This document shows, in pieces, positions 28,305 through 30,621 of a stretch of 64,000 nt of DNA. The position numbers and the translations under genes are program-made. Source of the DNA: Nocardioides jiangsuensis (GTDB taxonomy: Bacteria; Actinomycetota; Actinomycetes; Propionibacteriales; Nocardioidaceae); the NCBI RefSeq assembly GCF_019679455.1, contig NZ_JAIEZQ010000002.1, positions 930,001 through 994,000 of the forward strand, given 5' to 3'. The first letter of the stretch is position 1. Each line of letters starts with the position of its first letter. The notes below the pieces were generated by a model. That model was given only the letters and a program-made list of their open reading frames with translations. It did not search any database and was not told the DNA's origin.

Positions 28305-28877
28305 ATGGCGAGCACCGAGGTCGTCGTCGGCCGGGTCGGGAAGGCCCACGGCATCAAGGGTGAGGTCTCCGTCGAGCTGCGGACCGACGAGCCGGAGCGT
28401 CGCTTCGCCGACGGCGTCGTGCTCGTCACCCGGGCCCCGGACGGCGGGGAGCCGCACGGCCCGTCCCGGCCCAGGTCGCTCTCCGTGCGCAGCACCCGCT
28501 GGCACCAGTCCCGCCTGCTCGTGACGTTCGCGGAGATCCGCGACCGCACCGCGGCCGAGGCCGCGCGCGGCCTGCTGCTCGCGGTCACCGTCGACGACGC
28601 CGAGACGCCCGAGGACCCCGAGGAGTTCTACGACCACCAGCTGGTCGGGCTCCGGGTGGAGACCGTCGACGGCCGCCCGGTGGGTGTGCTGGAGGAGGTC
28701 GTGCACGGCTCCGCGCAGGACCTGCTGTCGGTCCGGGCGGAGGACGGCCGGGAGGTCCTGGTCCCGTTCGTCGTGCAGCTCGTGCCCACCGTCGACGTAC
28801 CGGGCGGCCGGATCGTGGTCGAGGACCTGCCCGGCCTGCTCACCCCCGTCGAGGAAGAGGACGAGGGGAGCGCCTGA
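28305..28877 (+). CDS. rimM: Ribosome maturation factor RimM
   Basis: RimM binds S19 and helps assemble the 30S head. 190 residues: N-terminal RimM domain ([20 protein letters not shown]) and C-terminal PRC-barrel ([33 protein letters not shown]). The ATG at 28305 follows GCAGGTGAGG. One base separates the stop from the trmD start, so the two are co-translated. Confidence 0.95.
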
Positions 28878-28878
28878 G

Positions 28879-30057
28879 GTGCGGCTCGACGTCGTCTCGA
28901 TCTTCCCCGGCTACCTCGCCCCGCTCGACCTCTCCCTGGTCGGCAAGGCGCGGGCGTCGGGGCTGCTCGACGTCCGCGTGCACGACCTGCGCCGGTGGAC
29001 CCACGACCGGCACCACACCGTCGACGACACCCCGTACGGCGGCGGCGCCGGGATGGTGATGAAGCCCGAGCCGTGGGGCGAGGCGCTCGACGAGATCACC
29101 GCCTCCGGCGAGCCGGACACGGCGCCCGTGCTCGTCGTACCCACCCCCTCGGGGGAGCCGCTGACCCAGCGGGTCGCCGCGGAGCTGAGCGCCGAGCCGT
29201 GGCTGCTCTTCGCGTGCGGGCGGTACGAGGGCATAGACCAGCGGGTGATGGACCACGCCCGCACCCGGATGCGGGTCCGCGAGGTCTCCATCGGCGACTA
29301 CGTGCTGAACGGGGGAGAGGTCGCCGCGCTCGTGGTGACCGAGGCCGTGGTCCGGCTGCTGCCCGGCTTCATGGGCAACCCCGCGTCGCTCACCGAGGAG
29401 TCGCACGGCGACGAGGGGCTGCTGGAGTACCCCGTCTACACCAAGCCGCCGTCGTGGCGCGGCCTCGACGTGCCCGAGGTGCTGTTCAGCGGCAACCATG
29501 CCAGGATCGCCGCCTGGCGGCGGGCCCGAGCGCTCGAGCGCACCGTCGAGCGCCGTCCCGACCTGCTGCACCGCAGCCGTCGGCTCACCCTCGACACGCT
29601 CGGCGAGGTCGCCGAGGTCCGGGCGGCGACCCTCGCCGACGCCGCCGAGATCCTCACCCTCCAGCGTGCCTGCTGGCTCCAGGAGGCGCAGGCCAACGGC
29701 ACCCTCGACATCCCGCCGCTGAGGGAGTCGCTGGCCGACGTGGAGGCCGGGCTGCGGGAGTGGACCACGTTCGTGGTGCGCGTCGGCGGGCGCCTGGTCG
29801 GGTCGGTGCGCGGACGGCTCGACGGCCCCACCTGGAACGTCGGCCGGATCATGGTCGCCCCCGACCTCCAGGGCCGCGGCCTGGGGCGCTGGCTGCTGGA
29901 GTACGCCGAGCGGGCCGCCCCGGACACGGCCACCGGGTTCACCCTCTTCACCGGGGCGGGCAGCGCCGCGAACCTGCGGATGTACCGCAAGGCCGGGTAC
30001 CGCCCGGTGGCGAGCGACGAGCCCGGCGTCGTACACCTGGCCAAGCGGCGCCGCTGA
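28879..30057 (+). CDS. trmD: tRNA (guanine37-N1)-methyltransferase TrmD fused to a GNAT acetyltransferase
   Basis: 392 residues, whereas ordinary TrmD is about 230-250. Residues 1 to about 238 are a complete Trm[36 protein letters not shown], and the SAM-binding deep-knot [12 protein letters not shown] and [12 protein letters not shown]. It methylates N1 of G37 and prevents frameshifting. From about residue 246 a GNAT domain follows in the same frame ([51 protein letters not shown]) with the acetyl-CoA Q/RxxGxG loop. No stop or start separates them. The acetyltransferase target is unknown. The GTG at 28879 directly follows rimM. Confidence 0.93.
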
Positions 30058-30258: not shown

Positions 30259-30621
30259 ATGACCAACGTCATCGACACGCTCGCGGCTGCCACCAAGCGC
30301 GACGACATCCCCGCCTTCCGCGCCGGCGACACCCTCAAGGTGCACGTCAAGGTCGTCGAGGGCAACCGCTCCCGCGTCCAGGTCTTCCAGGGTGTCTGCA
30401 TCCGCCTGCAGGGCTCCGGCATCGGCCGCACCTTCACCGTCCGCAAGGTCTCCTTCGGTGTCGGCGTCGAGCGCACCTTCCCGCTGCACTCCCCGATCTT
30501 CGACAAGATCGAGGTCGTGACCCGCGGTGACGTCCGTCGCGCGAAGCTGTACTACCTGCGCAACCTGCGCGGCAAGGCTGCCAAGATCAAGGAGAAGCGC
30601 GAGGCGACCCCCGCGAGCTGA
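30259..30621 (+). CDS. rplS: 50S ribosomal protein L19
   Basis: 120 residues, at the 30S/50S interface. Signature segments: [76 protein letters not shown]. The ATG at 30259 follows GAGGAGACATC. The 201-base leader (30058-30258) contains possible stems (such as CCTGCCACAGG) and could be a regulatory leader, but I recognise no known motif. Transcription probably ends in the hairpin at 30670-30723, inside the lepB reading frame. Confidence 0.96.

Follow-up and report, generated by a model that had tools for sequence, protein, structure and literature searches.

What does an acetyltransferase do at the end of an essential tRNA methyltransferase? TrmD, the tRNA m1G37 methyltransferase, is a homodimer; it is essential and is a drug target. 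In the window, by which we mean the whole 64,000-nucleotide stretch of Nocardioides jiangsuensis DNA analyzed here, an original prediction made from the letters placed at 28879-30057 a single frame joining TrmD to a complete C-terminal GNAT domain with a QGRGLG motif. It went on to suggest that the GNAT acetylates TrmD, a tRNA base, or a ribosomal neighbor. The coordinates and the single frame were exact. We consider below whether the join is real, whether one protein is made from it, where the GNAT came from, and what it may acetylate.

The locus and its product

The features of the locus are as follows.

28305..28877, + strand: presumably rimM, an open reading frame named from sequence, position, and synteny, with homologues at relatives' loci
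28879..30057, + strand: trmD-GNAT fusion gene, a single frame of 392 codons plus TGA with a GTG start
28879..29571, + strand: TrmD (tRNA m1G37 methyltransferase) domain, residues 1-231, with PF01746 and NF000648 above cut-off
29572..29604, + strand: linker, residues 232-242, boundaries approximate and taken from the AF2 model, without in-frame ATG, GTG, or TTG
29605..30054, + strand: GNAT N-acetyltransferase domain, residues 243-392 (about), from PF00583, PF13508, AF2, and PDB matches
29869..29886, + strand: acetyl-CoA motif QGRGLG, residues 331-336, from sequence
29971..29985, + strand: NxxxY motif, N365 and Y369, from sequence
30259..30621, + strand: downstream neighbor that we take to be rplS (ribosomal protein L19), from sequence and open reading frame, with homologues at relatives' loci

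The gene starts with a GTG at 28879, leaving a single base between it and rimM, and its stop at 30055-30057 closes a product of 392 amino acids. Residues 1-231 amount to a full TrmD in its usual place between rimM and rplS. PF01746 matched residues 22-227 with 212.9 bits (cut-off 27.3), the curated NCBIfam TrmD model matched residues 1-230 with 304.7 bits (cut-off 220), and a second curated TrmD model gave 236.8 bits (cut-off 195). Comparison of 43 unfused TrmD proteins of the same class gave 91 near-invariant columns, and the window TrmD keeps 91 of 91. The full family match and these conserved residues suggest an ordinary TrmD that would methylate tRNA G37. What sets it apart from the tailed unfused TrmD proteins of actinobacteria is that their C-terminal tail (~20 residues or more) is replaced by a 150-residue GNAT, with the linker occupying the site of the tail.

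The C-terminal part matched PF00583 over residues 290-374 (48.7 bits, cut-off 20.7) and also PF13508 (47.2 bits, cut-off 27). AF2 was used to model both the whole chain and the GNAT alone. Residues 240-392, modeled alone, had a mean pLDDT of 94.9, and a PDB fold search with the GNAT model gave Z of at least 8 in 981 of the 999 top-ranked chains aligned; the 50 entries at the head of the list are nearly all acetyltransferases by title. The whole-chain model had a mean pLDDT of 86.6 and a pTM of 0.57. Its GNAT blocks, beginning at residue 251, reached pLDDT 90-97, and it was less certain near residues 221-250 and for some loops of TrmD. A pTM of 0.57 combined with high GNAT pLDDT is the pattern expected of a flexible tether.

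In GNAT enzymes, the acetyl-CoA motif has the form Q/RxxGxG/A, the Tyr of NxxxY is the usual general acid, and the first helix usually helps shape the acceptor site. In the motif, signature, and charge counts given here and below, identical rows were counted once, and L116 was included and L151 (broken frame) left out. The first motif glycine is present in 135 of 135 rows and the second in 133 of 135 (105 of 105 and 104 of 105 among the rows of the main TrmD-fused group described below). Of the main-group fused rows, 102 of 105 keep the NxxxY Tyr, as do 30 of 30 other rows. Altogether, the GNAT motif residues are kept in 101 to 105 of the 105 main-group rows, and the window copy keeps them all. 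Fold and motifs thus point to a working acetyl-CoA-dependent acetyltransferase, and Pfam, NCBIfam, the sequence itself, and the GNAT model all bear out the predicted architecture. Three GNAT tails behind TrmD (L130, L173, and L174) are without the NxxxY Tyr and are apparently decaying copies. PADLOC models returned 0 families for the fusion protein at E 0.01, and a role in anti-phage defense was therefore rejected.

Recurrence and distribution of the fusion

With the GNAT part as query, a scan of named genomes yielded 311 confirmed loci, of which we analyzed the best 80. In 78 of these 80 the GNAT is fused to TrmD in frame and stop-free, while the other two, in Rhodococcus ruber (L090) and Amycolatopsis suaedae (L094), are without TrmD in the locus. 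Both Pfam domains are found in all 58 members of the fused alignment, and the named fused loci include Nocardioides, Marmoricola, Pimelobacter, Phycicoccus, Leekyejoonella, Flexivirga, and Luteipulveratus. In the family of the window (group f1), the fusion lies in one frame in at least 156 of the 245 genomes, counting that of the window: 150 among the matches listed plus six more, two of which match only to residues 349 and 351. The family genomes and the named loci overlap in organisms. The search for the same architecture in related genomes therefore gave a positive answer, and recurrence in frame among the best 80 loci, in many different records, settles the doubt that a frameshift or missed stop had created the join. 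A sequencing or assembly artefact is ruled out by that recurrence, and the probability that such an error joined two genes here is negligible.

Beyond the family, the order sample had the fusion in 38 of 38 genomes of group f3, in at least 7 of 49 of group f2 among the matches listed, and in 0 of 8 of group f4, again among the matches listed. In the class sample, at least 6 of 7 genomes of group f36 are fused; in the other 348 class genomes outside f1, f2, and f36, the matches listed contain no fusion. In the phylum sample (296 genomes), only G000, G385, and G416 are fused among the matches listed. Group sizes in the order and class samples were counted by eye, and a TrmD whose fused GNAT was unrelated or highly diverged would count as unfused in all genome samples.

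Some loci carry the fusion in pieces. In G047 (L213 and L219) and in G282 of group f2 (L151 and L214), which would be an eighth f2 case, the pieces share one contig but not one frame, through either sequencing error or real breakage. In G100 the TrmD and GNAT pieces are on two contigs, making it, like G047, a less clear case within the family.

The linker and the single chain

The linker is the place where one protein could become two, and the original prediction had asked for an internal start near codons 238-246 to be looked for. The window gene contains no in-frame ATG, GTG, or TTG between codons 201 and 288. A start at codons 238-246 is unavailable for this reason (codons 202-287 hold no such triplet) and is ruled out for these three codons in the window genome; CTG at codons 229 and 230 are the only remaining internal start candidates.

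The same scan was carried through 92 of the 96 fused loci, the four others being dropped because their first GNAT helix was missed by the pattern. An in-frame ATG, GTG, or TTG occurs in or near the linker in 60 of the 92, accompanied in 17 of the 92 by a Shine-Dalgarno-like stretch, and 32 have none in the scanned stretch; an internal start is therefore not conserved. Between the RPDL motif and the first GNAT helix these loci have 16 to 31 residues, with 12 different lengths represented, so the frame has been kept through many length changes. Pooled omega was 0.31 for the TrmD part, 0.64 for the linker, and 0.39 for the GNAT part in 37 disjoint fused pairs, and this dN/dS evidence is weak because many of the pairs are distant.

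The idea that an internal start or linker cleavage yields TrmD and the GNAT as two proteins draws some support from the loci that do have a linker start codon, 17 of them with a Shine-Dalgarno-like stretch, and from the linker being the least constrained part. Against this stand the start-free linker region of the window gene, the 32 loci without a start codon, and the frame kept across 12 lengths, and we consider separate proteins very unlikely.

Probable gain, loss, and exchange at the trmD 3' end

Although widespread, the fusion is not stable along the TrmD phylogeny. A phylogeny of 82 TrmD cores shows 17 changes of the fused label, at least 13 of which are forced by well-supported branches. 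The window TrmD groups with two unfused congeners (99/96), both ending in the usual actinobacterial tail; a third congener is also unfused. The window RimM is nearest to the same two unfused congeners as TrmD. The window L19, a very conserved protein, is nearest to that of the fused relative L116 (94%, versus 93% for L115), and the window GNAT is nearest to fused relatives from other genera (64-68% identity). Because the TrmD/RimM side goes with unfused congeners and the L19 and GNAT with fused relatives, the trmD 3' end has probably been exchanged: either the GNAT was gained in the window lineage, or the congeners regained their tail by recombination.

Unfused TrmD proteins come in two forms, sorted with a custom pattern in which row L168 was corrected by hand: a tailed form of the LDxRDREVLA type (L115, L117, L118, and L119) and a short form ending after RPDLL (L121, L127, L128, L136, and L143). 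The short form, having neither tail nor GNAT, may be a scar of GNAT loss. We rejected a neighboring stand-alone GNAT gene as an intermediate, since the flanks examined contained a match to the window GNAT (E 1e-3) at 0 of 43 unfused trmD loci. Retention of the GNAT elsewhere in the genome was also rejected as a rule for unfused genomes, since a free match at E 1e-10 was strong in only 4 of 40 and weak in another 4. The appendage appears to have been lost or exchanged often.

At L016, a second, diverged GNAT frame lies just downstream of the fusion gene (on the reverse strand of the locus), with a possible GTG two bases past the trmD-GNAT stop. It has 37.5% identity to the window GNAT, is shortened near the S..N motif, and is probably a tandem duplicate.

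The GNAT family outside TrmD and the number of joinings

At E 1e-25, members of this GNAT family are present in 125 of 388 class genomes, fused ones included. Besides the two free-standing members L090 and L094, whose flanking frames on reading gave no lead on function, we examined 20 further non-TrmD loci, and in 8 of these the GNAT forms the C-terminal domain of an NADPH-dependent FMN reductase (L185, L186, L187, L188, L189, L198, L202, and L203; PF03358 in 8 of 8).

In the GNAT tree, which is without a root, the TrmD-fused copies of f3 and f2/g27 group with 9 free-standing Y-type members (100/98), and the remaining TrmD-fused copies group with FMN-fused and free W-type members. Forcing a single origin of all TrmD-fused GNATs cost 46 log units (AU p 0.0275), and without the odd row L123 the same constraint cost 44 log units (AU p 0.0381). 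The main TrmD-fused group alone is compatible with one origin (p 0.365), as are f3 and g27 together (p 0.069); these two subgroups were named after the first tree had been seen. The larger GNAT trees leave out the long or broken rows L130, L151, and L174, and the second of them leaves out L123 as well. These tests give moderate support to the view that this GNAT was joined to TrmD at least two times.

The first GNAT helix separates the same branches. On one branch, 102 of 105 main TrmD fusions carry a CW signature, together with 8 of 8 FMN fusions and 5 of 5 free members. The f3 and g27 TrmD fusions (4 of 4 each) and the other free members (9 of 9) have Y or F in that position. Free members had been sorted into the W and Y branches, from tree and sequence, ahead of this count. 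At the level of sequence, then, the helix signature follows the GNAT lineage rather than the partner. The main TrmD fusions have a mean net charge of -0.37, the FMN fusions of -0.12, and the free W-type members (5 rows) of -2.6; on the other branch the mean is -2.75 in f3, +2 in g27, and -1 in free Y-type members (9 rows). Charge decides little, because fused forms are partly less negative than their free kin but not according to partner.

What the GNAT may do

Our best reading, which we hold at about even chances, is of two enzymes in one chain, both predicted to be active, with the GNAT keeping a partner-independent substrate that is neither TrmD nor tRNA. One polypeptide would combine an ordinary TrmD with an acetyl-CoA-dependent GNAT on what is presumably a flexible tether. 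The GNAT would derive from an actinobacterial family that has free-standing members too, and others that serve as FMN reductase tails, and it would most likely acetylate the same substrate here as in those kin, with an amine metabolite, a xenobiotic, or a protein terminus as candidates. Its gain might be steady, cotranslated expression from the ribosomal rimM-trmD-rplS cluster and a forced pairing through the TrmD homodimer. The appendage would have been gained more than once (with the moderate support noted above) and often lost or exchanged. We arrive at an autonomous GNAT riding on TrmD because the helix signature follows lineage, the motifs are kept, and the domain is not RimI. The last point rests on RimI model TIGR01575, which gave the window GNAT 23.8 bits against a cut-off of 86.4, whereas another gene in the same genome passes that cut-off with 91.0 bits; identity with RimI was rejected on these scores.

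The originally suggested acetylation of TrmD, a tRNA base, or a ribosomal neighbor is not supported by these results, given free-standing and FMN-fused kin, a signature that goes by lineage, and the RimI scores. In its wider form, the idea is that the tether brings the GNAT close to a translation-linked substrate, which might be TrmD or its tRNA, an aminoacyl-tRNA, or one of the cluster's ribosomal proteins. It would fit the probable occurrence of at least two independent joinings of the same family to the TrmD C terminus, the retention in all f3 and at least 156 f1 genomes, and the presence of RimI and N-terminal acetyltransferases among the structural neighbors (Z about 17-18). It would also fit the less negative charge of the main fused GNATs and of g27 compared with their 5 and 9 free kin. 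However, the helix signature is common to kin without TrmD, and the charge shift is not TrmD-linked, since FMN fusions resemble the main TrmD fusions and f3 lies below its free kin. Generic GNATs with near-tied Z head the structural matches, which indicate no substrate. With so few unfused genomes holding a free GNAT (4 strong and 4 weak of 40), a general translation step would not be GNAT-dependent. On balance we regard a translation-linked substrate as unlikely, if still a serious alternative.

Rather improbable, in our estimation, is that the GNAT no longer matters as an enzyme, being either a neutral passenger or an acetyl-CoA-binding domain that adjusts TrmD activity. The frequent changes of the fused state on well-supported branches and the three tails that have lost the NxxxY Tyr would suit this explanation, but motif residues kept in nearly all main-group rows, an omega of 0.39, and a window copy with every motif residue intact argue against it.

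The reading of an autonomous GNAT has its own difficulties. Repeated joining to the same TrmD end and full retention in f3 hint at a functional tie, the tests for multiple origins are moderate and come from an unrooted tree, some fused lineages carry an apparently decayed GNAT, and the helix-signature argument for partner independence is one drawn from sequence. Taken to its far end, the functional tie leads to a bolder and, we think, improbable idea: the TrmD C terminus would be a preferred landing place where this GNAT family was installed independently at least twice because, riding on TrmD, it acetylates some part of the translation machinery, for example a TrmD-held tRNA or aminoacyl-tRNA, so tying acetyl-CoA supply to m1G37-dependent control of the reading frame.

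Comparison with known systems

The literature search, which covered the titles and abstract openings of open-licence papers, had no TrmD-GNAT protein among the matches listed, and neither "acetyltransferase" nor "GNAT" occurs in the main text of three papers on SPOUT proteins (PMC1829167, PMC9508554, and PMC5372735). The architecture is probably visible in domain databases.

RimI has the GNAT fold in common with the window domain (2cnm aligns with Z 18.2 and 1.8 A over 136 residues), but the window GNAT scores well under the RimI cut-off that another gene of the genome exceeds. The free-standing proteins of Rhodococcus ruber and Amycolatopsis suaedae have 60 and 61% identity to the window GNAT and share its helix signature and motifs; they differ in that TrmD is absent from their 8.4-kb loci. 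The FMN reductase fusions (PF03358 plus PF00583) carry the same GNAT family as a C-terminal tail, just as the window protein does, but behind an NADPH-dependent FMN reductase instead of TrmD. One GNAT family tailing two unrelated enzymes offers a small, testable case of a mobile domain.

Fusions of TrmD itself are known already, and the GNAT is a new partner. PDB entry 8b1n is, we assume, the structure of the TrmD-Tm1570 protein of Calditerrivibrio nitroreducens. The 8 Pfam families that matched the window protein at E values up to 10 do not include PF09936. The fusion of TrmD and the GNAT is a widespread and reversible natural addition, which implies that the TrmD C terminus tolerates a whole second-enzyme domain, and the occurrence of fused, tailed, and bare TrmD within single genera provides a natural test of what the addition does. 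According to PMC11187310, TrmD-Tm1570 fusions (PF01746-PF09936) number 66 proteins, and that of C. nitroreducens resembles the window protein in having a second enzyme at the TrmD C terminus in one chain; its second domain is another SPOUT RNA methyltransferase, whereas that of the window protein is a GNAT.
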